From a virus: DNA of 24,041 nucleotides. Below are positions 5,797-23,486 of the stretch, piece by piece; positions within the stretch are counted from its first letter, which is position 1, and each line of letters starts with the position of its first letter. Below the pieces are notes generated by a model that was not told the DNA's origin, made no database searches, and worked only from the letters and a program-made list of their open reading frames with translations. The stretch is taken from the IMG/VR virus record IMGVR_UViG_3300032285_000689, positions 1 to 24,041 of that record; one strand, written 5' to 3'. The translations under genes and the position numbers were made by a program.

Positions 5797-6234
5797 ATGC
5801 CATACGTTAGTCAAACCCTTAATCCTGTCAAATATTCTGACAGACATACTGCAAAACAGAGTCAGTTTTATAAAGGATTCAGCACGGTTAATCCTAACGC
5901 CACTGATGTTAAATTATATGACTATGATCTAATCAAACAAGACATACTGAATCAATTCCAGGTTAGAAAAAATGAAAGAGTCATGGATCCTAAGTTTGGT
6001 ACAATCATATGGGATCTGTTGTTTGATCCATTAACGGATCAAACTAAGCGTCAAATTGCAGACGATGTTACCAGGATAGTAACTAGTGATCCACGAGCAT
6101 CCGCATTAGAAATAAACGTAGTAGAACAAGAATACGGACTATTATTAGAGATAACTCTGCAATATATAGGATCAGATCAGACCCAGGTCCTTAAGTTAAA
6201 TTTTGACAAAGAAATTGGTCTTTCAGTTGTTTAA
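5797..6234 (+). CDS. 25: Baseplate wedge protein, T4 gp25-like
   Basis: A 145-residue protein, close to the T4 length of about 132. gp25 sits at the inner ring of the baseplate with gp53 and gp6, and its structural homologues form sheath-initiating wedges in other contractile systems. Key features: VRKNERVMDPKFGTIIWDLL (about 52-71) with the family's R...P.FG....L.F pattern, then FDPLTDQTKRQIADDVTRIV and SDPRASALEINV, the latter holding the DPR/EPR-type motif around residues 98-100 typical of the gp25/GPW family. It ends in two predicted strands (LLLEITLQYI and QVLKLNF). It lies eight bases after gp5 and before gp6, as expected for a baseplate cluster. There is no convincing ribosome site. 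Confidence 0.88.
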   Translation: MPYVSQTLNPVKYSDRHTAKQSQFYKGFSTVNPNATDVKLYDYDLIKQDILNQFQVRKNERVMDPKFGTIIWDLLFDPLTDQTKRQIADDVTRIVTSDPRASALEINVVEQEYGLLLEITLQYIGSDQTQVLKLNFDKEIGLSVV

Positions 6235-6291: not shown

Positions 6292-9200
6292 ATGATACCA
6301 TCAACTACAAACAAATTATTAGTCGCTGAAGACTGGACCAAGATCTACGAAAGTTATAGAAACGCGGATTTCGAAAGCTATGACTTTGAAACTTTACGCA
6401 GAACTATGATCACGTATCTGCGTGAGAACTATCCAGAAGACTTTAACGATTATATTGACTCTAGCGAGTACATTGCATTAATTGATCTTATTGCTTACCT
6501 AGGTCAAAATATAAGTTTCCGTATTGATTTAAATGCTAGAGAAAACTTTTTAGAAACTGCCCAACGCAGAGACAGCGTGTTAAGACTAGCACGTCTTATT
6601 AGCTATAACGCTAAACGTAATATTCCAGCTAACGGATTTCTTAAAATTTTAGCAGTTTCAACAAACGACAACGTAACAGACGTTAATGGTAATAATCTAG
6701 CTGGTGCAGTTATTAACTGGAACGATCCTACTAACACCAATTGGTACCAACAATTTATATCTGTTATAAACAGCGCCATGCCTGGCTCTTTTGTATTTGG
6801 TCGTCCGTACGACCTTTCAACTATTGATGCTATTGAACATCATCAATATAGAATTAACAGTTCAAATACAAACATTCCAGTTTACAGTTTTAATGCCAAC
6901 ATCAGTGGGACACAGATGAACTTTGAAGTTGTTTCGAGTTCGTTTGCCAACAAAACATATGTATATGAAGAAGCTCCTAAACCTGCAACTCAGTTTAGCT
7001 TTATATATAAAAACGACAATCAAGGAAATGCCTCAGCCAACACTGGATTTTTTGTGCATTTTAGAGAAGGTGCGTTAAGCGTACAAAACTTCAATGTAGT
7101 TACTCCGGTACCAAACGCTATTGTTTCTGTTAACGCACCTGATGTAAACAATTCAGATACATGGTTATGGCAATTAGATGTGTCTGGAAATTACAGTAAA
7201 TTATGGACCAAGGTCAATGACTTTGTAGGTAATAATGTTATCTACAATAGTGTGAATAACAGTGAAAGAAACATCTACGGAATTTCTACTAGAGAAAACG
7301 ATCAGATAGATATTAATTTTTCTGATGGAAGTTTTGGAAATCTTCCCAAAGGACAATTTGCATTTTTCTATAGACAAAGCAACGGTCTAAATTATGTTAT
7401 TAAACCTCAACAGTTAAACAACATTAGATTGTCAATACCTTATGTTAATAAAAATGGTCAAAGTTCTGTTTTAACAATTATCTGTAGTTTACAGACTACT
7501 GTAAGCAACAGCTCTGCATCAGAAACAACTGAGCAGATTAAACTTAAAGCTCCACAAAATTATTATCTACAAAATAGAATGATCACTGCTGAGGATTATA
7601 ATATTGCTCCTCTGACAGCAGGCAACGATATTTTAAAAATTAAAAGCATCAACAGAATTTCCAGCGGAGTCAGCAAATATTTTGAACTTTCTGATGTCAG
7701 CGGAAAATACAGCAGTACAAATATTTTTGCCAACGACGGTATCTTATATCGCAGTCCACTAGAAAATAGTTTTAATTTTAACTTTTTTAACGAAAGCGAC
7801 ATTATAGGAATTATTGACAATCAACTGTCAGAAATCGTAACCAGTGCTGAGATGCGTAGTTTATATCTAGATCAATATCCTAGAATCAATGCCAGCGGTA
7901 CAGAACTTACATGGACTCAAGCACAAAAAAACACTAATCAGACTAACGGATATTTTAAAAATTTAACCAATCCTGTGCCTGTAGGCGAATACACAGATAA
8001 TGATCTCAAGTATGTAGTACCTGGATCTCTTATTAAATTTATTCCACCAGCTGGATATTATTTCTTACCTAATAGAACTTTAACTAGTGTTAAAGATTCC
8101 ACCACTAGAAATTATATATGGTCTAAAGTGGTAGGAGTTATCGGTGACGGATTTAATAACGGGTTAGCTTTACTGTCAACTGGGGCCGGTCCTATTACAT
8201 TGACTGGAACTGTGCCAGACGGTGCAGTGGTATCTCAAATTATACCTGCATATGCATCAATATTGTCAACTGCAATTAAATCTGAAATTGTTAAAATTTG
8301 TACTTCAAAACAAAATTTTGGGTTAAGTTTTGATTCAATAACCAGAGCTTGGTATATTGTTTCTACCAATAACGTAAATTTTATTAATGCGTTTAGTTTG
8401 GTATTCCAAAAAGATGTTTCAAACACTAACAAAGACAGCAGTTGGTTCGTGTCTTTTGAATGGACAGGCATGGACTATCGTGTGCGTTATAGAACATTGG
8501 ATTATCTATTCGAAAGTGTTGCCGAGACAGCATTTTATGTAGATAGCGATAAGAAAAGTTATGATTTTGTTAATAATACTGTTATTAAAGATCAGATTAA
8601 AGTGCTGTCTATTAATAACAGCATTTCAACACCAACGTCTGCAGAAATCGAAGTATATTCATCAAACGACAACGGATCAATTACAGGATTTTCAATTGTT
8701 AATTCCGGAACTGGTTATTTGTCAACTCCGACAATTTTAGTCGACGGGCTTACTGGCGGACAATTTTACCCTATTATAACAAATGGTTCTATTACTGGAG
8801 TATTAACTATTGACGGTGGCACCGGATATACTACTGGTACTGTAACAGTAAGTGCTCCTGATGCTCCAAGAGATATTAGTTTATTAGGAGTCGACTATCG
8901 TTGGCAAATAAACAGTGCAACTGTTGAGCCCGACGGATTTATTAATCCTAGTAAAGTTAAGATCAGTTTCTTTGATGCAGATGAAAACGGACAAATTGAC
9001 GATCCTGATGCATTTAATAATATTGTTCAACCTGACTCTGTCAGTTTACAAACTGCGTATAATGACAAATTTGTATTTTTTAAATATCTGAGCGATGGTC
9101 AAAGATATCAGGTTGCTACAGATGTTATTTTATCTTACCCAACAGAGCAGCCGGTAACAGATCCTGTCAACGGTCAGCTATATTATTTCTATGCACCGGA

Positions 9201-9924
9201 CATTAATGTTATTAAACGATGGTCTGCAGATGCACAAGAGTATGTGTTAGAACCTGACTATTTTGCATACTACGGTAGATCTAATTTAAAATTCCATTAT
9301 CTACACAACAGCGGTGAGGAACGTAGAATTGATCCTAGTAAAACTAATTTAATTGACGTATATCTATTAACAAGAAGTTACGATACTGAATATCGTAATT
9401 GGCTAACAACCAGGATTGGGTCAGAACCTACTCCGCCGACAAGCAGTAGTCTTGAAGAAAATTTTGCATCTAGTCTTGAACAGATCAAATCAATTAGTGA
9501 TGAATTAATATTTCAACCAACTCGCTATAAAGTATTATTTGGAAATCTAGCTGATCTACCGTTGCAAGGCACATTCAAAGCAGTAAGAAGCGGATCAAGT
9601 ACAGCCAGTAACAATGATTTAAAAACTAGAATCATTGCTGCCGTTGAAGAATTCTTTAGTATTGACAATTGGGATTTTGGAGATACATTTTATTTTAGCG
9701 AACTATCTACATATGTTATGAATAAATTAACTCCAGACATTACTAATTTTATTGTGGTTCCTAACTCAATAGGCACGTTTGGAAGTCTCTACGAAGTTAC
9801 TTGCCAGAGCAATGAAATTTTTGTCAGCGGAGCAACAGTCAGCGACATTGAAATCATTGATGCAATAACAGCATCACAACTAAAAACCTCAGGGTCAATT
9901 GTAACTAATACGAACGGACAATAA
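6292..9924 (+). CDS. 6: Baseplate wedge protein gp6
   Basis: A 1210-residue protein. In T4, gp6 dimers tie neighbouring wedges into the continuous ring of the baseplate core. The N-terminus is diagnostic: LRENYPEDFNDYIDSSEYIALIDLIAYLGQNISFRIDLNARENFLETAQRR (about residues 44-94), followed by VLRLARLISYNAKRN. Residues about 330-460 hold a conserved region with INFSDGSFGN and QNYYLQNRMITAEDYN, typical of gp6 and gp6/J-type wedge proteins. T4 gp6 is about 660 residues, so this form is nearly twice as long; part of the excess is two GxGY repeats (about 796-859). The C-terminal part (about 1060-1190) resumes the wedge-like pattern (TRYKVLFGNLADLPLQG). No clear ribosome site precedes the ATG, and a three-codon ORF (ATG ATT GAA TAG, 6278-6289) ends just before it. 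The next gene begins two bases after the stop. Confidence 0.88.
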   Translation: MIPSTTNKLLVAEDWTKIYESYRNADFESYDFETLRRTMITYLRENYPEDFNDYIDSSEYIALIDLIAYLGQNISFRIDLNARENFLETAQRRDSVLRLARLISYNAKRNIPANGFLKILAVSTNDNVTDVNGNNLAGAVINWNDPTNTNWYQQFISVINSAMPGSFVFGRPYDLSTIDAIEHHQYRINSSNTNIPVYSFNANISGTQMNFEVVSSSFANKTYVYEEAPKPATQFSFIYKNDNQGNASANTGFFVHFREGALSVQNFNVVTPVPNAIVSVNAPDVNNSDTWLWQLDVSGNYSKLWTKVNDFVGNNVIYNSVNNSERNIYGISTRENDQIDINFSDGSFGNLPKGQFAFFYRQSNGLNYVIKPQQLNNIRLSIPYVNKNGQSSVLTIICSLQTTVSNSSASETTEQIKLKAPQNYYLQNRMITAEDYNIAPLTAGNDILKIKSINRISSGVSKYFELSDVSGKYSSTNIFANDGILYRSPLENSFNFNFFNESDIIGIIDNQLSEIVTSAEMRSLYLDQYPRINASGTELTWTQAQKNTNQTNGYFKNLTNPVPVGEYTDNDLKYVVPGSLIKFIPPAGYYFLPNRTLTSVKDSTTRNYIWSKVVGVIGDGFNNGLALLSTGAGPITLTGTVPDGAVVSQIIPAYASILSTAIKSEIVKICTSKQNFGLSFDSITRAWYIVSTNNVNFINAFSLVFQKDVSNTNKDSSWFVSFEWTGMDYRVRYRTLDYLFESVAETAFYVDSDKKSYDFVNNTVIKDQIKVLSINNSISTPTSAEIEVYSSNDNGSITGFSIVNSGTGYLSTPTILVDGLTGGQFYPIITNGSITGVLTIDGGTGYTTGTVTVSAPDAPRDISLLGVDYRWQINSATVEPDGFINPSKVKISFFDADENGQIDDPDAFNNIVQPDSVSLQTAYNDKFVFFKYLSDGQRYQVATDVILSYPTEQPVTDPVNGQLYYFYAPDINVIKRWSADAQEYVLEPDYFAYYGRSNLKFHYLHNSGEERRIDPSKTNLIDVYLLTRSYDTEYRNWLTTRIGSEPTPPTSSSLEENFASSLEQIKSISDELIFQPTRYKVLFGNLADLPLQGTFKAVRSGSSTASNNDLKTRIIAAVEEFFSIDNWDFGDTFYFSELSTYVMNKLTPDITNFIVVPNSIGTFGSLYEVTCQSNEIFVSGATVSDIEIIDAITASQLKTSGSIVTNTNGQ
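8677..8868 (+). repeat. Two GxGY repeats inside gp6
   Basis: Residues about 796-859 of gp6 contain two copies of a roughly 25-residue unit: SITGFSIVNSGTGYLSTPTI and SITGVLTIDGGTGYTTGTVT. The pattern is I.(G/S)..(V/I)..gGtGY...P.v.v.g. The same unit occurs four times in the giant protein encoded next. Such units are common in structural proteins of T4-like environmental phages and probably form small beta modules. Confidence 0.7.
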
Positions 9925-9926
9925 GA

Positions 9927-12900
9927 ATGGCACGTAAATCTATAAATTTTCTACCGGTTTATTATAGAACAGATAAAAATTCAAAATTTTTATCTAGCAC
10001 CTTAGACCAATTTATATCTCCACCTCAGCTGGAAAGATTAAACGGATTCATCGGTAGTAAACTAAGTCCAAATTATAATCCTGAAAAAGATCAATATATT
10101 TCAGACCCATTGCCCTTAAGAAGAAAATATCAATTAGAACCTGGACTAATTATTCGTAAAAAAGACGGAACAGTTGATCGTGCTTATGGATATGATGATT
10201 TAATTAATCAGGTTGCATACCATGGCGGAAATGTTGACAACCTAGACAAATTGTTTAGACCTGACACCTACAGCTATGATCCGCAAATAGACTGGGACAA
10301 ATTAATTAACTATAGAAATTACTATTGGTTACCAACAGGCCCAGAACCAATTAGAATTACGGGAACACAACGAGAATTAGTTAGCACATTTACAGTAACA
10401 TTAAATTCAGATGGTCGTTTCTTTGTTTTTAGTCCAGACGGAATCACAGAAAGTCCTCAAATAACTCTGTATCGAGGCGTGACATACGTTTTCAATGTAG
10501 TTACCGATCATAAGTTTTATATTAGAAATAATCCTGACTACAGTATAACTGATTTATATACCACTGACGTAGTAGGCAACGGGTCGGCTGAAGGACAGGT
10601 AATAATAACTGTCACAGACACAACCCCTACAGTATTGTTTTACGGTGCAGACAGTGATCAAATTGGCATTGGCAAAATTGTAATTAAAAGTATTACTGAA
10701 AATAGTTTTATAGATGTAGACAACGAAATTGCCGGCAAGGCGCAATTTAAATCTGGCAACGGTGTAGAATTTGTTAACGGTCTTAAAGTAACGTTTGGCG
10801 GCACAGTAATGCCGGACACCTATGCCAATAAAACTTATATTGTTGAAGGTGTGGGTAAATCAATCAAACTAGTAGATTATGATTTATTGGTTACACCCGA
10901 AACTTCGGCGGAGCTTTACAATTCTAATTTTGATGCTGAAAATTTTGACGAATTTCCGTTCGACAATTTTAAAAACATTCCAATAGATCCTTCGTATGTG
11001 ACAATTAATCGAGCCAGTCTTGATTTAAATCCTTGGTCTCGATACAATCGGTGGTTTCATGCAAATGTACTAACTGCGGTAGCAGAAGCTAACGGCGAAT
11101 CGGTAATATTGCCTACTGACAAACAGGCACAACGTCCTATCGTTGAATTCATCCCTAACCTACAATTATTTAATTTTGGAAATCGTGCAGTAGCTAACAT
11201 TACTCTAATGGATACTTCCGTTAAAGATGCGTTTTCAAATGTTGAAGGTTCTGCAAGTTATTGGGTCGACGGAGTACTGTTAGATCAAGGACATAGAGTA
11301 GTTTTTAATGCCGATACTGATCCGTTAGTTCGAGGACGTATCTATGAAGTTAACTTTGTAACAATTGAAAATAGAAGAAAAATTAGCCTTGTGCCAACGG
11401 AAGATTCTATCCCGTTTACAGGCGCCTGTGTTGCGGTAGATCAAGGAACTAATAATTTTGGAGATTGGTGGTACAATACAGACAGTTGGATTTATTCACA
11501 ACAAAAAACTACAATTAATCAAGCACCACTTTTTGATGTTTTTGACAACCTTGGCAATAGTTACGGCGGCGATTCCTATACTAGTAATTTTGAAGGTACT
11601 CGCGTGTTTGGATATGGAGTAGGCACAGGAGCGAACGATCCAATTTTAGGTTTTCCCCTACAATATAAAAATACCTATCTTGAAAGTTCTTTTCTATTTT
11701 TAAATTATTTTAATACTGACCAGGTTATTAGAGTTTTTCCAGATATAGCAGAAACCTTTCCAGTTAGCCGCGGATATCTAAAGCTCAACGAAAATACAAC
11801 AACCTATTTAAATGTATGGACAAAATCTAACGAATACAAAATTCCTGTTATTCAGTTTCAGGTAACCGAAACAGTAACTGATCAAATTGAAATTACTGTA
11901 TTTGACAATCCTGGATACATAACTGATTTTGTTATTGATGTATATGTTGACAATTCTAAATATAAGTTAGATCAAGACTATACTCTGGTAGCAGAAAATA
12001 ATTTATTGTTTGTTAAATTTACAACTGACGTTGCCGTAGGATCAAAAGTTAAATTTGAAATTTTATCCGATACAGCCGCTAATGTCGACGGCACGTATCT
12101 AACTCCTATAAATCTTACCAACAACCCATTAAATGGTCCAGTTGCAGAATTAACACTGAGCGAATTGTACGACCATGTTCACACCATGGTCAATCGCGAT
12201 CCTGAGTTCAGCGGATCTTATATTGGTGTGAGTAATCTAAGTCAATTGCCTAACACAACTGCATACGGAACTAGGATTATTAGTAGTGCTAATCCGTTGT
12301 CAATGGCTCAATATTTTATAAGCAATAAAGACAACAATCTTATCGAAGCCATACAACAGGCTAACGATGATTATAATCAATTTAAATTAAATTTAATTAG
12401 AACCATTTCTCAATTAGAAAATAATGCGTCTGCTCCTGAATTATTAGACACAGCGATTTCAGTATTGAATAGTAGTAAAAATACTTCTTTTGCCTACCTA
12501 TTAAGTGACATGGTTCCATATGGAACAAATAAAAAGACTAGACAATATACTGTAACAGACAGTCGAAATACTGATTATTCAATTACTAATATTTTTAATC
12601 CTGATGCAGTTTCAAATCAAGCGGTATTGGTATACCTAAACGGCGAACAATTAATTCTTGGTAAAGATTATAGTTTTAATCAATATGAAACCAGTGTCGG
12701 ATTATTAGTTAATGTTATCCCTGGCGATCAAATCACTATCTACGAATACTTAGATACTGACGGGTGTTATATAGCACCAACTCCTACTAAATTAGGATTG
12801 TATCCAAAATATCAACCATCTATATATTTAGATACCTCTTATGCTAACGGACCTGTCAATGTAATACAAGGCCACGATGGCAGTTTATTAGTGGCATTCA

Positions 12901-15900
12901 ATGACTATCGCGATGCAGTTATCTTAGAATACGAAAAAAGAATTTATAACAATATTAAAACTACCTACGACAGCGATTTATTTGACATCAATAGTTTGTT
13001 GCCGGGGGTGTTTAGGAATGAACTATATTCATACAGAGAGACTTATAATTTAGTTACAGATTTATTTGTACAGTGGGCTGGCAAATATGGAGTTGATGTT
13101 GAAACAAATTTAACATACGATATAGACAATCATAAAACATACAATTATAAATCTGCCGTCGACTATGTGTTCAACAAGCCACTACCTGGAAGTTGGCGAG
13201 CAATTTACAAGTATTACTTCGATACCGATCGCCCAAATACACATCCTTGGGAAATGTTAGGTATTAGTATTAAACCTGATTGGTGGGACAGCTATTACGG
13301 ACCAGCCCCATATACAGCAGGTAATGCAAAATTATGGACTGATCTAGAAGCTGGGCTTATCGCTCAAGGACCAAATGCAGGCATCAATCCGTTGTATGCT
13401 CGCCCAGGGCTAGGTCAAATTATTCCAGTTGATGACAGTGGAAATGTAATCGATGTTAGATCTTGGGCAGGCATTGCCGCCAACGATTCTATACTTGACA
13501 CTGATCAAGAATGGGCATTCAGTGATTGGGGTCCCGCAGAAAACGCATGGCGCAAAAGTAGCAATTGGCCGTTCGCTATACAAATAATAATGGCATTGCT
13601 TAAACCAGCTGACTATGCCGCAAAATTATTTGACACCAGCAGAATGACATTGAATAATGCCGGACAATACACCTATAATGTAACTAATGGTTTTATTAAC
13701 CCAACTGATCTAGTGCTATTCGGTGATGTCGATTCTAACGGAAATACTATTCGAGCTTCTGGATATGGAGTATATGTAATTGAAGCAGGAAAGAAAAAAG
13801 CTAACTCATATACTAGTCAATTAAAAAATCAACTAACGTACGGTAATTTTAATTTATTTTCTAAACTAGGCGGGTTCGTTAACAAAGATAAATTAGAAAT
13901 TGTTATTGATGCGGTACAATTAGACACTAAGAGCACAATACCTTATCTACCAGATGAAGATTACACAGTACATTTTAATGTCAGTAATCCTGTTGAGACA
14001 ATTGCGATATCAGGAATTATAGTTATAAAACTAAATGGGAAATTTGTTGTTAGAGGCTATGACAAGAAAAATCTTTATTTTAAAACCTACAAACCTATTC
14101 ATTTAGTATCTGATCCGTCTATTGTTATTGGCGGAAAATCTGAAGAATTTTTAACCTGGCAAACAGGTCAGATCTATATTGCTGGACAAATTGTGTCTTA
14201 TCAAAACGCCTACTATAGAGTTATCGCAAATCATAGTGCCGGCGCAACCTTTAATCCAGTATATTATAAATCTATTTCTGTATTGCCAACTGTTGGAGGA
14301 ACCAGCGTCCAGCAGGCACTCCGTTATGAAACACAAGAAACAGTTGTTTCATACGGAACAAAATTTTCAACAGTCCAGGAAGTTACAGATTTTATATACG
14401 GTTACGGAAAGTGGTTAGAGGAACAAGGATTTATATTTGATGATTATAATTCTGATTTCCAACAGACAATCAATTGGTCTTTTACTGTAAGAGAGTTTGT
14501 GTATTGGACCACGCAAAATTGGGCCGATAATAGTGTAATTACATTAAGCCCATTTGCTAATAAATTAAAATTTAAGTTTCAAGAAGGTGTAGTTGACAAC
14601 ATATTTGACAGTTTCTATGAGTACAGTCTATTACGTGCAGACGGATTTGCTTTCCCTAGCAATAATTTTAGTTCTTTACGTGATGGAAATTTACTGACTA
14701 TTAATACTAAAAATACCTACGAAGGTATTTTCTTTGCTCGATTAAATGTAGTACAGAAAGAACACTCGTTAATTTTTAATAATACAACTATTTTTAATGA
14801 TGTGTTATACCAAATTGATTCTGGATACAGACAGTATAGAGTTAAATTACTTGGATTTAAAACCGCAGGCTGGGAAGGAGATTTCTTCAGTCCTGGATTT
14901 GTTTATGACAATGCTAGTATTCAGGCATGGACTCCCTATGTTGATTATCTTCCTGCTGATGTTGTTGAATATGTAGGAAAGTATTATTCTGCCAAATTAA
15001 AAATTACAGGATCGCAGTCTTTTGATTTTACACAATGGATTCCATTAAACAAAGCACCTACTCCGCAGTTGTTGCCTAACTTTGATTACAAGATTAATCA
15101 ATTTGAAGATTTTTATAGTCTAGATATTGACAATTTTGATGCCGGCCAACAGAAAATGGCTCAGCATCTAACCGGGTATAGTCCTAGAAATTATCTTGAC
15201 AATATTTTTGACAACCCTATTAGTCAATATAAATTTTATCAAGGTTACATCAGAGAAAAAGGAACTAAAAATTCTTTAACAAAATTAGAAAAAGCATCAA
15301 CTGCTAATCTTCAAGGTAAATTAGAACTCTACGAAGAATGGGCATTTAGAACAGGCTATTTTGGATCTTTTTCAAGTTTTAACGAGATTGAGTTTCCTCT
15401 TAGAGAGCAAGATTTTGTTGAAAATAGCCAACTAATTAATTTTGTTTCTGCAGTACCACAGGCAGAAAATAAATTAATATCTTATATAACTCCTCAAGAT
15501 GCTGTTATACTGCCTAAAGATTATGTGCCAGGTAACACGTTTGTTACAAGTTCTGGAACATTTAAAAATAACAATCTAATACTTCCTCATGCTGGATATG
15601 TAAGATTAGATGATGTTGCCCAGTCGGCATTAAATCTTGGCGCTATTACCACATCAACTAATACTATAACTTATCAAGAAGGAGATAAGGTATGGGTGGC
15701 ATTTAATGCAAGCGGAGATTGGGATGTACTAAGACATACTCGTCAGTCTAATCAAATTGTGAATGCTACATTGGTATCTGTTGGTAGAGTTAAAATTAAA
15801 ACTGCCAATAATCACAGTTTTAAAATTGACGATTTAATTCAAATTACTAATTTTGATGCCGGCCTAAATGGTTCGTATTTTTTAGATGAAATTAATTCAT

Positions 15901-18900
15901 TAACAGAATTTACATTACCAACACAGGTGCAAAATATTCCAGTAAAACTACCGCCTGGAGTAATAACAAAATTTGAAAGTGTAAGATTTAAATCTGTTGA
16001 CGATATTTCTAAACTAAAATACATTGCAGATATTCATCCTAATGAATTGATGTGGGTAGACGATATTGGTGACGGCCGGTGGGGCGTGTTAGAAAAAATT
16101 AAAAATTATTCTCAAACTGAATCTGTTGCCCCAACTAACTACCCTGGACAAGATTTCGGATATAAAATTGCTAAACAATCTAATAGTTCTACGGTGGTAG
16201 TGTCTGCTCCTAATAAAACTGATGCAGTTGGAGGTCACGGTCGACTATATGTTTATAAACTAAATGGAACCACATTAAGACCAGTTATTAATTATGGATT
16301 TAATGAAATTGACAGAAAATATCGTCCTCAAAACGATAACACACCTTTTGGAGATGCGCTATTTTATGACGAAACAGATGAATTAATATTTGCGTCTGCA
16401 TCTAAAGCCAGTTTTATTAGAATTAATAATTCTCCTTCATACTCTCGTCCTATTAATCTATCTCAGCCTTACTATAATACTACCACGTTTGTTAGCCTAG
16501 GTGCTGTTAAGATATCTGGATATTTTGATTCAAGTTTTTCAGAAACAATACCTTACGCTGTGATTACAGATCCTGTGCCTCAGAATAGATCATATTTTGG
16601 TACCAGTATTTTTGTTCAACGATCAACTGGAACTAAGATACTATTAGTAGGAGCGCCCGGGCATACATCAACTGCGCTAACAACCGCAACAGGTTTAGTC
16701 TATAGGTTTAATGTTTCAATAGAAGAATCAACTGCGGTCACATATACATCTACTGCATCTATTACTACCGGTACTGTGTTAATAGGTAGTGGGGCTACTT
16801 TTGATGTCACTGCCGCCGCCGGAAAGTATACTACAGAATTTAATGGTGTTGGCACTACTGGTACAGGTTATGTGGTAGGAAATGTACTTAAAATAACCGG
16901 AGATCTATTAGGTGGAATAAGTCCATTTAATGATCTTAAGATTAAAATCAGTGAAGTTAATGCCCTGGGGTCAATCGTTTCTTATGTTACAACCGGCACT
17001 GGTGCATTTAGAACAGTGTCAATTACAACTGGTAGCCAAACAAAATTAACGCTACCTACTGTTATTACAGACAATGTACACTACCAAACAAGCACTAGTC
17101 AATTTGGCGCAAAAATTGTTGGAACTCAAGACGGGACAACAGTTGCAGTATCTTCACCGGGTGTCGATCACTCCAAAGGAGCAGTCCACATCTATGTGTT
17201 AGATAACGATGAATATCAGTTAACTCAGACTATATCTTCAGAACTTGCAGAATTCGATAATAAAATTGGCTACGGTTCTGAACTAGGATCTGAAATTGCA
17301 ATGAGTGAAGATGGGACATACTTGTTTGTGTCATCAATTAAATCTCGATATGATGCTATTGGGCCAGGCAGGGTGTGGATTTATAAAATAAATTCTACAA
17401 CTGGGCTGTATGAAATACTACAAGAGATAGCAAATCCTACACAAGAACCAAAATTAAATTTTGGACATGCAATTAGCATCAGTACTGACAACACATTATT
17501 ATCTATAACCAGTCAAGGCGATAACTTTGCAAATCGAAGTACCTTCGATCGAGAAACAACTACATTTGACGGAGATGCCTGCCGATTTGGAGATATTATT
17601 ACCGGATCAGGTACTGCATATGTTTATAATAGATATAATGAACTATTCTTACTTGCGGAAGAATTATTTGACAATACAGTTGACGAATACAGTTCATATG
17701 GAGATAGCGTAGTTGTTTCTAATGATGTGGTATTAGTTGGCAGTATTAATAGCATAGTAAACGGTAATCAAAACGGATCTTTATACATATGGAATCCAAT
17801 AGACACAACTAAAAACAGTTGGAATTTATATAGAGAACAGCAACCATTAATTGACATCGGTCTAATTAAAAATGCGTCAACTATTGATGCACTACACGAA
17901 AGTGTACTTGATTACTTAGATATTTTAGATCCTTTAAAAGGACGTATTCCGGGTCTAGCAGATCAAGAATTAAAATATAAAACAGCGTTTGACCCAGCTA
18001 TATATGAAGAGGGTAACGACACTGTAGTAGTCAATGCTGATCGTTTTTGGACAGACGACCATGTTGGTGAATTGTGGTGGGACTTAACTTCTGTAAAATA
18101 TGTATGGTACGAACAAGGCGAGCTCGATTATAGAAAATCAAATTGGGGATCGTTATTCCCAGGTGTTGAAATAGCGGTATACGAATGGGTAGAGTCGTCA
18201 TATAATCCTAGCCAGTGGACATTATTAGCAGATACTAATGACGGGTTGACCAAAGGAATTAGTGGCGGTCCAAAATTCCCAGATAATACAGTTTATAGTA
18301 CCAAGCAAAAATACGATAACAACACAGGTGAATTCTCTACCTTGTATTATTTCTGGGTAAAAAATAAAACGATTGTACCGTTGTCAACCACAAGAAAAAT
18401 ATCTGCGGCCAATGTGGCAAATTTATTAACTAGTCCAAAATCTTACGGTTTGGAATATTTAGAAATCTTATCGTCTGATGCCGTAGCATTGACTAATTTC
18501 CAAACTAATTTAATTGGAGATCGGGTCTATCTTAACATAGCATTTGACAATTTAGGAAACAACATTAAAAAACACACCGAGTGGGCGCTGGTACAAGAAA
18601 ATAATGAAAACAGCGTTATCCCTAAAATGCTAGAAGCAAAATTGTTTGACAGCCTATTAGGAAAGGACAGCGTCGGTAATCTAGTGCCAGATCCTTCATT
18701 GCCGTCAAGACTAAAATATGGTATTGAAATTCGTCCTAAACAAGGAATGTTTGTTGACAGAAGAGCGGCTCTTCATAATTTAGTAGATTATACTAACGGC
18801 GTTTTGTCAACTATAAGAACACGAGGATTTTTTAATTTTAAAAATCTAAATGCCAAGAAAGAAATTCCAAATGCATTATTGGGCGAATACGATCTAGTAG

Positions 18901-21900
18901 TAGAAACAGTAGAAGCTCGCGGACTATTAATTACAGCAACACTAAAACAGGCGCAATTAAGCTGTCAGGTAACCAACGGAAGGATCACTTCGGTATCTAT
19001 TGATGATCCTGGATACGGATATAAAATTGCTCCAACTGTTTTAGTAATGGGAGTGTCCGCTAATAACGCAGTAATTAAAACTGTAATTGATTCAGTTACT
19101 GGGTCAATTGTAGATACTATAATTGACAATCCTGGATACGGTTTTGTTACAGCGCCATCACTACTGGTCAGACCATTTACTGTGGTTGTTCAAATTGATC
19201 CAGAATTCTCCAGCAAGTGGAGTAAATTTGAATGGAACGGATCTACCTGGGTACGAACATATACACAAGAATTTGATACATCAATGTATTGGAAATATGT
19301 TGATTGGGTTGACACCAGTTTTAACAAATTTAAAACACTATCTGCCACTGTAGAAGAAACATACGAATTGCCTAAATTAGATTTAGTATCGGGCGACTAT
19401 GTTAAACTTAATAATCCAGGAGATGGATATTATCTAATCTTAAGAAAAACAGATACAGGAATTAATGGAACATTTAATCCAGACTTTGATGTAGTGTATA
19501 GTGAAAAAGGTACAATCCAGATACTTGACACTATATGGGATTCTGCCAAGGCACAACTGGGATTTGATCAAGAAACAACGTATGATCAAACGCTGTATGA
19601 TCAAACTCCGGACGTTGAATTAAAGAATATTATTACCGCAATTAAAAATGACCTATTTGTAGGAAGTTATAGAATCTATTGGAATAAGTTTTTCTTCAAA
19701 GCAGTAAAATATGCACTGACTGAGCAGAAATTATTAGATTGGGCATTTAAAACTACATTCATCAATGTTAATAATGCCGCCGGCGTATTAGATCAACGTT
19801 CTACCTACAGATTCCAGGATCCAACTTGGTATGAAAATTATCTAGAGGAAATCAAACCATTCCATACTAAGATAAGAAATTACCAGGTAAATTACCAAAT
19901 AGGTAAATCTAATGATGCACCGTATGAACTTAATAATACATATCTAACAGATTTTGATTTACCGCCGGCATACGATACTACGATCGATTCTTTCATTACT
20001 ATAGGTACTGGTAACGAATTAATTAATCAATATCCGTATAAAGCATGGAATGACAATTATGGATATGAAGTAGACAGCATTGAAATTATTTCAAATGGTG
20101 CAGGATACCGAACAACTCCTGTGGTTAACATTATTCCTGCCGCCGGCGACACTGGCAGTGGTGCAGAAGCAGTAGCGTACATTGCCTACGGAAAAGTAAG
20201 AGAAATAGTATTAACAAAACCTGGTAGCGGATATACTAAAACGCCAACAGCAATAATTGTTGGCGGAGGCGATTCTAATCTAACTCCAGCTACTGCCTAT
20301 GTTAGATTAGCAAACCATAAAGTTAGATCTAATGTTGTTAAGATGAAATTTGATCGAGTCACATCTAATACTTCAACATTTGAAATACTTGATAAAACAG
20401 CTACTGACACATTTGTTGCTTCTGGATCTGATTTTATGTTTACCTTAACATGGTATGCATCTGCACTAGCATCTACTACTGAAATTACGATAGATGGTAT
20501 AACTTTGCTATCCAGTGATTATGCTATTACTGAGTATTCCACATTGTATAACGGATACCATAAAAAATACAGCGAATTAGTGTTGTCGACAGTTCCTTCT
20601 AGAGGACAGACAATCCAAATATCTTATAACAAAAATATTGGGTTATACTCAGCGGCGGAACGTATTAGAGATTATTATCTACCTACTACCGGAATGCCAG
20701 GAAATGAGCTAGGCCAGCTAATGGAAGGCTTTGACTATCCTGGAGTTAATATAGACACATTACCCTTTGCCTATAGTTCTGCATGGGATGTTTTACCATA
20801 TGAACAAAGTTCGTATGCTAACGATATTGATTTCTTTACCACAATAGATATTTTGTCAACTGCGCCTGCAGGAACAGACACTGTAGTGTTATCTACTATT
20901 GATGGAGTAAAACTCGGGCAGTATGTTAACATCCTTAACACCAGTTCAATATCTAATGTGTTCTCTACAACTGCTAGTACTTTTGTAACAGCAATCAATA
21001 CTATTACCAACGCAATAAAATTTAATTCTACACTAAGTCAAACTGTGTCTGGAACCGTTGGTAGTGTAGTCGAATTGTGGAGTTTTAACGATGTGTCAAG
21101 CAATCTTGACACAGTTATCGACGGCGGCGATTTGGCCTATACCACAGCCTTAGGACTACGTCCGAGCGATATTATTATTGACGGCGATGGGTTCTTAACA
21201 CCGTATACTAGCCATGCTCCTGAAGAGGTAGTACCTGGAGAGGTTCAAGAAAGTTTAAGTATTAGTGTGTTCACTAGAGAGCCAGGCGGCAGTCCTTTAA
21301 TTGTAACGCAAACAACTATAATTGATTCAACATCAAGTTCTTACACTATTGATTTAAAACAACAACCTACAAGTACTTCTTCAGTGCTAGTATCTTACAA
21401 TGGAAAATATCTAACCTACGATATAGATTACAGTCTTAACGTAATTGAAAAGACAGTGACTATTAATACACAAAGTTCAATCGGTATTGTAGGAATAACA
21501 GTAGTCGGTGTCGGTGGAAGCGAAATACTTGGATCAAGTATAACGACATCCACTGGAGTAACCAAACAGATTGTTAATACATGGATTTCTTATAACAATG
21601 TTGGTAGCATATATGTTACTGTCAACGGAGAGACATTGTCGGAATCAACAGCAACTACTCTTAGATATTCATTAGCTCCGGTTAGTAAAAAGAATAATTT
21701 GGCACAACTAACTGTATATGGATTAAATCCAAATACTACAAATTTAATTCAGGCATGGTTCTTCCAAGCTGAATTTAAGGGATACAGTGAAATTAAAGAG
21801 CAGATAATAAAAATGCCAGGGCAACAAGTAAATGTTACCTTTGATGTTAACAATGCTACTCCGCCGGTTGGCTCTGGCTGGGTGCTAGAGGAAAACGAAT

Positions 21901-23486
21901 CTACAAGACAAATACAGGCTGGTTGGACAATGAAAGATTCTACCGGAGCAGAATATACAGTCACTTATGCATCTCATAATAATCTATTTAATGGATGGGG
22001 AGTTGGATTTAATCAAGCAATAACTATATATTGGCCTCTTGTTTTTAGATCGCCAGATATTGTATCTACTTCTACATTTACCTTAATACAGCCTCCGGGG
22101 AATTTAGGACCATTCCATGCGCAGGCTATTGTTGAATTAAATGGAAAACGATTGACTCCTCCAGCAACTACATATTATGCAGTAACGGATAGTCAACTAA
22201 TTTACGATATTCGACCAAATGAAAGTAATCCAGGTGGCATATTCGGAATGTCGACTCTTGAAGTATATGTAAACGGACAAAAAATAAGGCCGTATACTGA
22301 TTTTATTTTAGACCAAGCAAATAATCAAATAATATTTAATGCCGGATTCCTTACTATTGGCGATGTAATTGCTATTACTGTGATCTTAGGAGCAGAATAT
22401 TTAATTTATGATAACGAAGTTAGATTATTAACTTCAGTAGAAAGTGGCGACATAATTAAAATTATTACATTTACTAATCACGATGCCTCTAACATTAGAA
22501 CAGAAGTGTTCAGAGCATCATCCAGCAATAAGTATCGGATGGAACGTGCTGTAGTCGATGATAGTTATGTATGGGTTTCTATCGGCGGCAAGCCTTTAAC
22601 AAACAGTTACGATTTTAGAATATCTGAAGATCATCGCACTGTTGAGATTAATAGAGCATACGAATATAGTCTTTCAGACAAAGTTGTAATTACTAGTTTT
22701 AGTGATACATTTATAGGAAAGCAAGTTGGATTTAGAATATTTAAAGACATCTTTGGAAGAACATCGTATCTTCGTTATAGCGGAGCAAACACTACATACC
22801 TAGCTCAGGATTTAGCAATCACTGACGCTGAAATTCATGTAGTCAACGGCGACATCCTGCAAATTCCGTTACCCGGACAAAATATTCCTGGAGTTGTTTG
22901 GATTCAGGGAGAGCGCATTGAATACTTTACTAAAACTAAGAATACACTTGGACAACTAAGAAGAACAACATTAGGTACTGGCGCAAAAGAACTATATCTT
23001 TCTGGAACTACAGTTGTTGATCAAGGTAAAAATCAAGCAATTCCGTATACTGAAAATGTTATTTCTGACACATTCATTACTGCAAATACCACTTCTTATC
23101 TATTAGTTAATGTTGATCCTGTTCAGTCAACCGCTACAAATTCTATTGAAGTATTTTATGCAGGAAGAAAATTGAACAAATTTACAAGCATTACACATAA
23201 TTCAGCCCTAGCATACGATTCTGGTGAGAATAATAGCGATACATATTATGATCCAGAGTTTACTATTAACACGTTAACTAATACTTTAATACTTCGTGAC
23301 TTGCCCGAGTTAGATAAAAAATTATTAGTGGTGCAAAAACAAGCAGAACTTTGGTATAATCTTGGTTTAGGTACAGCAACTGATGGAACAGGTCTGCTCG
23401 ACAGCACAACTCCACAGGCCCGATTCTTGTTAGAAAAACAATCAGCTTTGCCTACAATTTATATAGAGCGCCAAACTTACAGTTAA
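9927..23486 (+). CDS. Giant modular baseplate protein in the gp7 position (4519 residues)
   Basis: One uninterrupted frame, about 500 kDa. It follows gp6 by two bases, where T4 has gp7 (about 1030 residues), the wedge protein linking core to periphery. I recognise segments typical of very long proteins in this place in environmental T4-like phages: NRASLDLNPWSRYNRWFH (about 362-379), WEMLGISIKPDWWDSYYGP (about 1109-1127), NWGSLFPGVEIAVYEWVES (about 2739-2757), YGIEIRPKQGMFVDRRAAL (about 2931-2949), and near the C-terminus FRIFKDIFGRTSYLRYSG and GQLRRTTLGTGAKELYLSGT. Inserted modules: a cupredoxin-like domain (152-256), CBM5/12-like modules (about 1410-1451 and 1664-1708), an FG-GAP beta-propeller (about 2070-2625), GxGY repeats (about 3019-3085 and 3384-3445) and NG...DY beta modules (mostly 3518-4472). 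No signal peptide, transmembrane helix or catalytic motif was recognised. Base composition resembles the neighbours. True homology to gp7 is inferred from position only. The ribosome site is weak, so translation may be coupled to gp6. Confidence 0.75.
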   Translation: MARKSINFLPVYYRTDKNSKFLSSTLDQFISPPQLERLNGFIGSKLSPNYNPEKDQYISDPLPLRRKYQLEPGLIIRKKDGTVDRAYGYDDLINQVAYHGGNVDNLDKLFRPDTYSYDPQIDWDKLINYRNYYWLPTGPEPIRITGTQRELVSTFTVTLNSDGRFFVFSPDGITESPQITLYRGVTYVFNVVTDHKFYIRNNPDYSITDLYTTDVVGNGSAEGQVIITVTDTTPTVLFYGADSDQIGIGKIVIKSITENSFIDVDNEIAGKAQFKSGNGVEFVNGLKVTFGGTVMPDTYANKTYIVEGVGKSIKLVDYDLLVTPETSAELYNSNFDAENFDEFPFDNFKNIPIDPSYVTINRASLDLNPWSRYNRWFHANVLTAVAEANGESVILPTDKQAQRPIVEFIPNLQLFNFGNRAVANITLMDTSVKDAFSNVEGSASYWVDGVLLDQGHRVVFNADTDPLVRGRIYEVNFVTIENRRKISLVPTEDSIPFTGACVAVDQGTNNFGDWWYNTDSWIYSQQKTTINQAPLFDVFDNLGNSYGGDSYTSNFEGTRVFGYGVGTGANDPILGFPLQYKNTYLESSFLFLNYFNTDQVIRVFPDIAETFPVSRGYLKLNENTTTYLNVWTKSNEYKIPVIQFQVTETVTDQIEITVFDNPGYITDFVIDVYVDNSKYKLDQDYTLVAENNLLFVKFTTDVAVGSKVKFEILSDTAANVDGTYLTPINLTNNPLNGPVAELTLSELYDHVHTMVNRDPEFSGSYIGVSNLSQLPNTTAYGTRIISSANPLSMAQYFISNKDNNLIEAIQQANDDYNQFKLNLIRTISQLENNASAPELLDTAISVLNSSKNTSFAYLLSDMVPYGTNKKTRQYTVTDSRNTDYSITNIFNPDAVSNQAVLVYLNGEQLILGKDYSFNQYETSVGLLVNVIPGDQITIYEYLDTDGCYIAPTPTKLGLYPKYQPSIYLDTSYANGPVNVIQGHDGSLLVAFNDYRDAVILEYEKRIYNNIKTTYDSDLFDINSLLPGVFRNELYSYRETYNLVTDLFVQWAGKYGVDVETNLTYDIDNHKTYNYKSAVDYVFNKPLPGSWRAIYKYYFDTDRPNTHPWEMLGISIKPDWWDSYYGPAPYTAGNAKLWTDLEAGLIAQGPNAGINPLYARPGLGQIIPVDDSGNVIDVRSWAGIAANDSILDTDQEWAFSDWGPAENAWRKSSNWPFAIQIIMALLKPADYAAKLFDTSRMTLNNAGQYTYNVTNGFINPTDLVLFGDVDSNGNTIRASGYGVYVIEAGKKKANSYTSQLKNQLTYGNFNLFSKLGGFVNKDKLEIVIDAVQLDTKSTIPYLPDEDYTVHFNVSNPVETIAISGIIVIKLNGKFVVRGYDKKNLYFKTYKPIHLVSDPSIVIGGKSEEFLTWQTGQIYIAGQIVSYQNAYYRVIANHSAGATFNPVYYKSISVLPTVGGTSVQQALRYETQETVVSYGTKFSTVQEVTDFIYGYGKWLEEQGFIFDDYNSDFQQTINWSFTVREFVYWTTQNWADNSVITLSPFANKLKFKFQEGVVDNIFDSFYEYSLLRADGFAFPSNNFSSLRDGNLLTINTKNTYEGIFFARLNVVQKEHSLIFNNTTIFNDVLYQIDSGYRQYRVKLLGFKTAGWEGDFFSPGFVYDNASIQAWTPYVDYLPADVVEYVGKYYSAKLKITGSQSFDFTQWIPLNKAPTPQLLPNFDYKINQFEDFYSLDIDNFDAGQQKMAQHLTGYSPRNYLDNIFDNPISQYKFYQGYIREKGTKNSLTKLEKASTANLQGKLELYEEWAFRTGYFGSFSSFNEIEFPLREQDFVENSQLINFVSAVPQAENKLISYITPQDAVILPKDYVPGNTFVTSSGTFKNNNLILPHAGYVRLDDVAQSALNLGAITTSTNTITYQEGDKVWVAFNASGDWDVLRHTRQSNQIVNATLVSVGRVKIKTANNHSFKIDDLIQITNFDAGLNGSYFLDEINSLTEFTLPTQVQNIPVKLPPGVITKFESVRFKSVDDISKLKYIADIHPNELMWVDDIGDGRWGVLEKIKNYSQTESVAPTNYPGQDFGYKIAKQSNSSTVVVSAPNKTDAVGGHGRLYVYKLNGTTLRPVINYGFNEIDRKYRPQNDNTPFGDALFYDETDELIFASASKASFIRINNSPSYSRPINLSQPYYNTTTFVSLGAVKISGYFDSSFSETIPYAVITDPVPQNRSYFGTSIFVQRSTGTKILLVGAPGHTSTALTTATGLVYRFNVSIEESTAVTYTSTASITTGTVLIGSGATFDVTAAAGKYTTEFNGVGTTGTGYVVGNVLKITGDLLGGISPFNDLKIKISEVNALGSIVSYVTTGTGAFRTVSITTGSQTKLTLPTVITDNVHYQTSTSQFGAKIVGTQDGTTVAVSSPGVDHSKGAVHIYVLDNDEYQLTQTISSELAEFDNKIGYGSELGSEIAMSEDGTYLFVSSIKSRYDAIGPGRVWIYKINSTTGLYEILQEIANPTQEPKLNFGHAISISTDNTLLSITSQGDNFANRSTFDRETTTFDGDACRFGDIITGSGTAYVYNRYNELFLLAEELFDNTVDEYSSYGDSVVVSNDVVLVGSINSIVNGNQNGSLYIWNPIDTTKNSWNLYREQQPLIDIGLIKNASTIDALHESVLDYLDILDPLKGRIPGLADQELKYKTAFDPAIYEEGNDTVVVNADRFWTDDHVGELWWDLTSVKYVWYEQGELDYRKSNWGSLFPGVEIAVYEWVESSYNPSQWTLLADTNDGLTKGISGGPKFPDNTVYSTKQKYDNNTGEFSTLYYFWVKNKTIVPLSTTRKISAANVANLLTSPKSYGLEYLEILSSDAVALTNFQTNLIGDRVYLNIAFDNLGNNIKKHTEWALVQENNENSVIPKMLEAKLFDSLLGKDSVGNLVPDPSLPSRLKYGIEIRPKQGMFVDRRAALHNLVDYTNGVLSTIRTRGFFNFKNLNAKKEIPNALLGEYDLVVETVEARGLLITATLKQAQLSCQVTNGRITSVSIDDPGYGYKIAPTVLVMGVSANNAVIKTVIDSVTGSIVDTIIDNPGYGFVTAPSLLVRPFTVVVQIDPEFSSKWSKFEWNGSTWVRTYTQEFDTSMYWKYVDWVDTSFNKFKTLSATVEETYELPKLDLVSGDYVKLNNPGDGYYLILRKTDTGINGTFNPDFDVVYSEKGTIQILDTIWDSAKAQLGFDQETTYDQTLYDQTPDVELKNIITAIKNDLFVGSYRIYWNKFFFKAVKYALTEQKLLDWAFKTTFINVNNAAGVLDQRSTYRFQDPTWYENYLEEIKPFHTKIRNYQVNYQIGKSNDAPYELNNTYLTDFDLPPAYDTTIDSFITIGTGNELINQYPYKAWNDNYGYEVDSIEIISNGAGYRTTPVVNIIPAAGDTGSGAEAVAYIAYGKVREIVLTKPGSGYTKTPTAIIVGGGDSNLTPATAYVRLANHKVRSNVVKMKFDRVTSNTSTFEILDKTATDTFVASGSDFMFTLTWYASALASTTEITIDGITLLSSDYAITEYSTLYNGYHKKYSELVLSTVPSRGQTIQISYNKNIGLYSAAERIRDYYLPTTGMPGNELGQLMEGFDYPGVNIDTLPFAYSSAWDVLPYEQSSYANDIDFFTTIDILSTAPAGTDTVVLSTIDGVKLGQYVNILNTSSISNVFSTTASTFVTAINTITNAIKFNSTLSQTVSGTVGSVVELWSFNDVSSNLDTVIDGGDLAYTTALGLRPSDIIIDGDGFLTPYTSHAPEEVVPGEVQESLSISVFTREPGGSPLIVTQTTIIDSTSSSYTIDLKQQPTSTSSVLVSYNGKYLTYDIDYSLNVIEKTVTINTQSSIGIVGITVVGVGGSEILGSSITTSTGVTKQIVNTWISYNNVGSIYVTVNGETLSESTATTLRYSLAPVSKKNNLAQLTVYGLNPNTTNLIQAWFFQAEFKGYSEIKEQIIKMPGQQVNVTFDVNNATPPVGSGWVLEENESTRQIQAGWTMKDSTGAEYTVTYASHNNLFNGWGVGFNQAITIYWPLVFRSPDIVSTSTFTLIQPPGNLGPFHAQAIVELNGKRLTPPATTYYAVTDSQLIYDIRPNESNPGGIFGMSTLEVYVNGQKIRPYTDFILDQANNQIIFNAGFLTIGDVIAITVILGAEYLIYDNEVRLLTSVESGDIIKIITFTNHDASNIRTEVFRASSSNKYRMERAVVDDSYVWVSIGGKPLTNSYDFRISEDHRTVEINRAYEYSLSDKVVITSFSDTFIGKQVGFRIFKDIFGRTSYLRYSGANTTYLAQDLAITDAEIHVVNGDILQIPLPGQNIPGVVWIQGERIEYFTKTKNTLGQLRRTTLGTGAKELYLSGTTVVDQGKNQAIPYTENVISDTFITANTTSYLLVNVDPVQSTATNSIEVFYAGRKLNKFTSITHNSALAYDSGENNSDTYYDPEFTINTLTNTLILRDLPELDKKLLVVQKQAELWYNLGLGTATDGTGLLDSTTPQARFLLEKQSALPTIYIERQTYS
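10383..10695 (+). other. Cupredoxin-like domain lacking metal ligands (in giant protein, residues 152-256)
   Basis: The order ITLYRGVTYVFNV, then DHKFYIRN, then NGSAEGQVIITV, then VLFYGADSDQIGIGKIVI follows a motif of phage cupredoxin-like domains (RG.TY.F, GHPF, G...f.V, LYY.C..H..M.G.i). Only H195 of the usual ligands is kept. The positions expected for Cys, His and Met are A241, D244 and about G247, so copper binding is unlikely. Confidence 0.55.
14155..15050 (+). other. Two CBM5/12-like aromatic modules (in giant protein)
   Basis: Residues about 1410-1451 (TWQTGQIYIAGQIVSYQNAYY, then NP..YKSI) and about 1664-1708 (AWTPYVDYLPADVVEYVGKYY, then FTQWIPL) share the pattern W....Y..g..V.Y.g.yY.a.......f....W. 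This resembles the small chitin-binding-type modules of family CBM5/12. They are separated by about 210 residues. Sugar binding is possible but not demonstrated. Confidence 0.45.
16140..17805 (+). other. FG-GAP-type beta-propeller, seven blades (in giant protein, about 2070-2625)
   Basis: Seven repeats have an FG or YG start followed by strands ending in VVSAPN, LLVGAPG or AVSSPG and closing with a G.(V/L)Y(V/I)(Y/W) strand. Blade starts by nucleotide: about 16150 (DFGYKIAKQ), 16350 (PFGDALFYD), 16590 (YFGTSIFVQ), 17100 (QFGAKIVGT), 17275 (LGSEIAMSED), 17457 (NFGHAISIS) and 17690 (YGDSVVVSN). This matches integrin-type FG-GAP repeats, which fold as seven-bladed propellers. Calcium loops (DxDxDG) were not obvious. 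Blade 2 is degenerate. Confidence 0.6.
16737..17075 (+). other. Module inserted between propeller blades 3 and 4
   Basis: Residues about 2271-2383 interrupt the propeller. They contain TGTGYVVGNVLKITGDLLGG followed by SPFNDLKIKI and ending in a second TGTG. This is a recurring phage tail-fibre-type motif (GtGY.vGD.l.i.G..lGG..p.NDl.i.v). It appears to sit in the loop joining two blades, so it would project from the propeller surface. Confidence 0.5.
18981..20270 (+). repeat. Four GxGY repeats in two pairs (in giant protein)
   Basis: Pair one (18981-19170, residues about 3019-3082): RITSVSIDDPGYGYKIAPTV and SIVDTIIDNPGYGFVTAPSL. Pair two (20077-20270, residues about 3384-3445): SIEIISNGAGYRTTPVVNII and KVREIVLTKPGSGYTKTPTA. 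The two pairs are about 300 residues apart. They share the unit seen in gp6. Confidence 0.65.
20478..23340 (+). repeat. Array of NG...DY beta modules (C-terminal part of giant protein)
   Basis: At least five or six divergent units share the form V.V.(N/G)G..L....DY.......i.......GD.I.I. Examples: VLVSYNGKYLTYDIDYSL (about 3819), IYVTVNGETL (about 3895), LEVYVNGQKIRPYTDF (about 4111), VWVSIGGKPLTNSYDF (about 4214) and IEVFYAGRKL (about 4406). Related units lie earlier near 12615 (VLVYLNGEQLILGKDYSF) and 11925. They are too diverged to be recent duplications. Confidence 0.55.

Follow-up and report, generated by a model that had tools for sequence, protein, structure and literature searches.

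The giant protein of 4519 residues encoded at positions 9927–23486 probably is the third subunit of the baseplate wedge, doing the job of T4 gp7 and P2 gpI. Where a jumbo phage encodes gp6, gp25, and gp53, a third wedge subunit (BW3) is to be expected as well, and within the baseplate cluster described here the giant is the best candidate for gp7. The gene, its family, the gene order, the folds of the modules, and the presence of homologs in virions are documented below or in published work, and the assignment to the wedge builds on these together with a short core motif.

Reading frame and gene order

The window, i.e. the whole stretch of DNA analyzed, is a complete IMG/VR record of 24,041 bases, and the genome of this phage is visible over this contig only. 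On the plus strand, the frame at 9927–23486 runs for 4519 codons without a stop, with the chance of such a frame at this base composition being ~10^-145, and the G+C content shows a strong three-base periodicity (44/38/24% over the codon positions). The frame is a genuine gene, and the first-pass annotation was right in describing it as open for 13.5 kb. Its product (4519 aa, 504.0 kDa, acidic) is, as had also been claimed, more than four times as long as T4 gp7 (1032 aa), and the computed weight of six copies, 3.02 MDa, agrees with the earlier estimate of about 3 MDa added to the baseplate.

By PHROG profiles, the order of genes in the window is a gp55-type sigma (minus strand), a 246-aa structural protein, gp53, a 683-aa structural protein, the gp5 hub/lysozyme, gp25, gp6, the giant, and then a protein of the phrog_11259 family. 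The genes for gp53, gp5, gp25, gp6, and the giant are on the plus strand. The gp53-like wedge protein (100 aa, 1466–1768) is recognized by its PHROG and by hhalign comparison with T4 gp53 (E 5e-6), and the gp25-like wedge protein (145 aa, 5797–6234) by a PHROG profile. The gp6-like wedge protein (1210 aa, 6292–9924; phrog_10646, E 8e-287; phrog_219, E 8e-21; hhalign with T4 gp6, E 8e-4) is the expected partner of the giant, and the start of the giant gene lies 3 bases past the gp6 stop. The gp5-like hub protein (3833–5788; PHROG and Pfam profiles) has a C-terminal VanY/M15 peptidase-like domain; at this place, the annotation of RaK2-type relatives gives a lysozyme domain. The 246-aa protein (726–1466), filed by PHROGs under head and packaging, presumably resembles the T4 gp54/gp48-type tube initiator.

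The same gp25-gp6-giant order was observed in essentially all of those among the 80 best IMG/VR loci that reach far enough upstream. Relatives of the giant adjoin gp6 in RaK2-, 121Q-, CBB-, PA5oct-, and Atu_ph07-type jumbo phages, and the giant gene immediately follows gp6 in PA5oct, Atu_ph07, Phosso, RaK2, CBB, 121Q, XaC1, and the Vibrio phage. An exception is SCTP-2, where gp6 is at 231–235 kb and the giant at 128–139 kb (18001–29424 of the retrieved locus, L004), i.e. ~92 kb apart; hence the adjacency of the pair is not obligatory. Downstream of the giant we identified no gp8 or gp9 homolog within the 24-kb window; in PA5oct, a gp10-like protein is encoded shortly downstream of the giant. 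The earlier statement that the giant sits exactly in the gene 7 slot holds as far as the gp25-gp6-giant order is concerned.

A widespread family of giant virion proteins

The giant matches the profile phrog_10938 'virion structural protein' (3324 positions, 1044 bits), the match extending across long conserved blocks, and it has the place beside gp6 in the baseplate cluster. Judged by its sequence, it is a member of a widespread jumbo-phage family already known as 'structural protein'. A tblastn search with the giant found relatives in 59 phage records, either jumbo genomes or pieces of such genomes, including Pseudomonas PA5oct-type phages, Agrobacterium Atu_ph07, Sinorhizobium Phosso, Salicola SCTP-2, Vibrio 2.275.O, and the RaK2/121Q/CBB/GAP32 group, and in the IMG/VR viral contigs at least 587 stretches encode relatives, of which the best 80 were retrieved for the analysis of gene order and length.

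The giants are of 3857 aa in PA5oct, 4449 aa in Atu_ph07, 4555 aa in Phosso, 3807 aa in SCTP-2, 3771 aa in the Vibrio phage, and 3326 aa in RaK2. The complete giants (n = 57) span 3138–6436 aa, hence the length of the window protein is ordinary for the family; the largest one, of 6436 aa, is encoded by an environmental relative (L094, 5640–24950). In one more relative (L085), the giant is split into overlapping genes of 4420 and 970 aa (9703–22965 and 22965–25877), the split point corresponding approximately to residues 3620–3664 of the window protein, and thus the C-terminal part can be separate.

The jumbo-phage members of PHROG 10938 (Atu_ph07 FDI40_gp180, PA5oct gp355, RaK2 ORF070, CBB_236, phAPEC6 gp245, and the Phosso protein) have 23–31% overall identity to the window protein, with homologous conserved blocks, and share with it the slot after gp6; they are virion components where this was tested. 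That the giant is a part of the virion is backed by mass spectrometry of three of these homologs: the record of PA5oct gp355 carries an ESI-MS/MS note, CBB_236 yielded 21 peptides from purified virions (PMC5259590), and phAPEC6 gp245 (382 kDa), listed beside the baseplate wedge protein gp244, yielded 17 peptides in virion MS (PMC7247149). The papers on CBB and phAPEC6 label the homolog merely as structural or hypothetical (PMC5259590, PMC7247149), and we found no paper that names the giant family gp7. PHROGs v4 places family 10938 in the category 'head and packaging', at odds with the conserved location of its members within the baseplate cluster.

Conserved and variable modules

The giant is conserved at residues 1–1900 and ~2600–3400, where most 100-residue blocks have roughly 35–50% identity to the relatives, and variable at residues 1900–2500 and 3900–4100. 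Insertions in longer relatives occur mostly near residue 2150, and fewer of them near residues 3650 and 4350. AlphaFold2 models were built for residues 1–1000 (mean pLDDT 88) and 890–2000 (mean pLDDT 82). All modules lie on the plus strand.

The conserved N-terminal region (residues 1–150, 9927–10376) is present in all 56 of 56 complete relatives. It is followed by a module with the cupredoxin fold (residues 151–258, 10377–10700; VIA Z 10.9, rmsd 2.5 over 95 residues). The column of the copper cysteine is occupied by serine or alanine in 55 of 61 relatives and by cysteine in three; in the window protein it is alanine. As the His-Cys-His ligand set is not kept at the cysteine position, we rejected a copper sensor role or a type-1 copper protein for this module, and the suggestion of sensor modules in the first-pass annotation is not supported, since the cupredoxin fold is devoid of the copper cysteine. 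A fiber/adaptor-type beta module (residues 640–712, 11844–12062) superposes with rmsd 2.1 over 68 residues (Z 8.8) on a chain that cyanophage P-SCSP1u has in its portal-tail complex.

Two CBM5/12-type modules were found further on. The first (residues 1408–1453, 14148–14285) is matched by Pfam with E 1.6e-5, just under the cut-off, by profile comparison with chitin deacetylase at E 7.5e-4, and by fold with Z ~7; the second (residues 1663–1708, 14913–15050) is similar to a baseplate protein of the Milano phage (Z 8.3, rmsd 1.3 over 45 residues). Carbohydrate-binding-type modules are thus seen by both profile and fold, consistent with the modular build proposed earlier. The candidate gp7/gpI wedge core, comprising helices around K1778-G1779-T1780 (residues 1719–1794, 15081–15308; motif-level match, pLDDT ~54–66), is followed by a stem-type beta module (residues 1941–2000, 15747–15926), which resembles phage endosialidase stalks with Z ~7 and may be a common arrangement.

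In the variable region there is an FG-GAP-type repeat (residues 2587–2621, 17685–17789; Pfam E 0.0015, below the cut-off). The second conserved block covers residues ~2650–3340 (17874–19946). Two GxGY..P repeat modules (residues 3007–3081, 18945–19169, and residues 3381–3456, 20067–20294) are common to the cyanophage giants described below, the first one also to a Dpo31 tailspike domain, and, close to the C terminus, an RG..GT beta module (residues ~4326–4390, 22902–23096) matches the cyanophage gp7-slot giants with hhalign P 1e-4. The protein S-H9-1 gp074, annotated as 'baseplate wedge subunit', was rejected as an ortholog, the shared part being the generic GxGY module only. A search of solved structures with the giant sequence gave no direct match.

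RaK2-type members of the family differ from the window protein in having neither the cupredoxin module nor both CBM modules nor most of the variable insert, so the cupredoxin, CBM, and variable parts are accessories. Environmental relatives with up to ~58% identity in the conserved block carry a fuller module set. The domain set is common to the family, and the earlier expectation that it might be new does not hold for this contig.

Search for a gp7 core

No gp7 model of Pfam or PHROGs matched the giant or any of the 76 members of the core alignment, and no significant match was obtained for the whole T4 gp7 profile against slices of the giant. As a calibration of the hhalign method, comparison with T4 gave E 8e-4 for gp6 and E 5e-6 for gp53.

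We then scanned 107 windows of 130 residues, covering the giant and six neighboring proteins, against the cores of P2 gpI, cyanophage gp7, and T4 gp7 as anchors. The window containing the KGT motif ranked first of 107 in combination (gpI, P 0.003; cyanophage gp7, 0.006; T4 gp7, 0.06) and aligned with all three anchors on identical columns, over ~20–50 columns, each comparison being weak. Its only rivals were an overlapping window and the RG..GT module, the latter scoring mainly via one anchor. The motif had been spotted by eye ahead of the scan, and it is for this reason that the window scan and the shuffles matter; none of 300 column shuffles reached the score of the KGT window. The lysine and glycine of the motif are invariant in all 89 of the 89 relatives with letters at these positions. 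In the same test, the accepted relatives gpI and T4 gp7 match each other with P 0.1 only, also on the KGT motif, and hence a true but distant member would be expected to give a signal about as strong as that of the giant.

The AlphaFold2 confidence in the KGT core is low (pLDDT 54–66). Among the matches that VIA and Foldseek listed for residues 1–2000 there was neither a T4 gp7 nor a TssG chain, the list being one that cannot exclude such a chain. The N-terminal 150 residues, suspected by eye as the gp7 core, gave no signal against gpI, Mu gp48, T4 gp7, or cyanophage gp7. Mu gp48 was dropped as an anchor, since it was uninformative and matched no gp7 either. No gp7-core signal was seen in the other small proteins that the cluster encodes, i.e. 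those of 246 aa and 683 aa and the downstream one of 174+ aa. With the T4 gp7 model, a separate gp7 of the T4 type was found in none of the records of 12 relatives (10 isolate genomes). Thus, the claim that the giant replaces gp7 keeps a motif match, weak as it is, in the KGT core, while the anticipated match of some slice to the gp7 family model was not obtained.

Giant proteins in cyanophages and other known systems

Very long proteins in this position had been said to be known in environmental T4-like phages, and cyanophages provide this precedent: the gene after gp6 encodes 3530 aa in S-H9-1 (gp068, L115: 2281–12873) and 6076 aa in syn9 (gp101, L114: 16763–34993). The KGT core of these giants matches T4 gp7 with hhalign E 3e-9 and 96% probability. 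They are annotated as 'putative fiber' or 'virion structural protein' despite the T4 gp7-type core, and the published list of T4 core genes passes from gene 6 to gene 8, without gene 7 (PMC2993671). The cyanophage giants share with the window the gp25-gp6-giant order, the KGT core, and the GxGY and RG..GT modules; however, their core is closer to the N terminus, compared to residue ~1778 in the window protein, and there is no overall sequence homology between them and the jumbo family.

T4 gp7 is similar to the giant in the place of its gene after gp6 and in the KG[IT]..S helix-turn-helix core motif, but is four times shorter, and beyond the motif no similarity can be detected. P2 gpI (Tail_P2_I, 176 aa) shares the KGT..A helix motif and, at the corresponding position after it, an E-W segment; it is, however, a minimal protein, and the single comparison is not significant. 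The (gp6)2-gp7 heterotrimer is common to contractile systems, including TssF2-TssG (PMC6300606, PMC10811340), and BW3 proteins make up the periphery of the baseplate and in many phages bear the receptor-binding proteins (PMC10811340).

Proposed arrangement and alternative explanations

In the arrangement that we propose, there would be one giant per wedge and six per virion, and the small helical core at residues ~1719–1794, which includes the invariant KGT turn, would bring two gp6 chains together in a heterotrimer. Everything outside the core would be an expansion. Ahead of the core, beta modules would make up an N-terminal scaffold, and a conserved domain with a chitin-binding-type module on either flank would come last before it; past the core there would be a variable insert, containing an FG-GAP-type repeat, and a C-terminal set of fiber-type domains, likewise variable. 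Together, the added parts would make up the periphery of the baseplate, where they may attach fibers and touch host glycans before contraction. The cupredoxin fold, the two chitin-binding-type modules, and the fiber-type beta domains would fit a wedge arm with a role in anchoring or in contacting receptors; that the giant forms an outer shell, as the first-pass annotation suggested, is a possibility.

Against the gp7 reading stand the lack of a match to the family models, the shortness and weakness of the motif, the low pLDDT of the core, the separated genes of SCTP-2, and the head category of PHROGs. The giant could be a fiber or whisker attached to the baseplate and not equivalent to gp7, the third wedge chain being another, unrecognized protein and the KGT match a coincidence. 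Fiber-type and carbohydrate-binding-type modules would be in place in such a protein, the syn9 protein of the same slot is annotated 'putative fiber', unassigned hair-like tail fibers are present in CBB and phAPEC6, both of them Rak2-like phages (PMC5259590, PMC7247149), and the giant has no significant gp7 match. However, the N-terminal two fifths are conserved and the link to gp6 is tight, the gp7-core signal is missing from the other small proteins of the cluster, and the cyanophage giants of the same slot do have a gp7 core; moreover, RaK2 belongs to the family, yet the other Rak2-like phages published are described as lacking whiskers (PMC5259590). We therefore consider a fiber or whisker unlikely.

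It also seems rather improbable that the giant is a fusion of gp7 with the functions of gp8–gp11, replacing most of the outer T4 wedge. The size of the giant permits this, gp8 is not recognized in the window, and the C-terminal ~900 residues form a separate gene in L085, but no window of the giant stands out in comparisons with T4 and cyanophage gp8, gp9, gp10, and gp11, and the gp10-like protein of PA5oct is a separate one. A head or packaging protein, as the PHROGs v4 category would have it, is hardly credible given the conserved position in the baseplate cluster and the tail-type modules.

Implications

Few proteins of these virions reach the size of the giant, and hundreds of environmental jumbo-phage contigs encode it in conserved form. 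With the giant placed as third subunit of the wedge, the jumbo branch would have the conserved gp25-gp6-gp7 core in full; this would also account for the whereabouts of gp7 in phages where gp6, gp25, and gp53 are retained, and would locate the host-contact modules. More tentatively, the gene-7 product could be present across the jumbo and cyanophage branches, hidden in giants, with a KGT core of ~80 residues tolerating thousands of residues of receptor-facing modules on both its sides, in which case the wedge subunit itself would act as the main evolvable platform for contact with the host.
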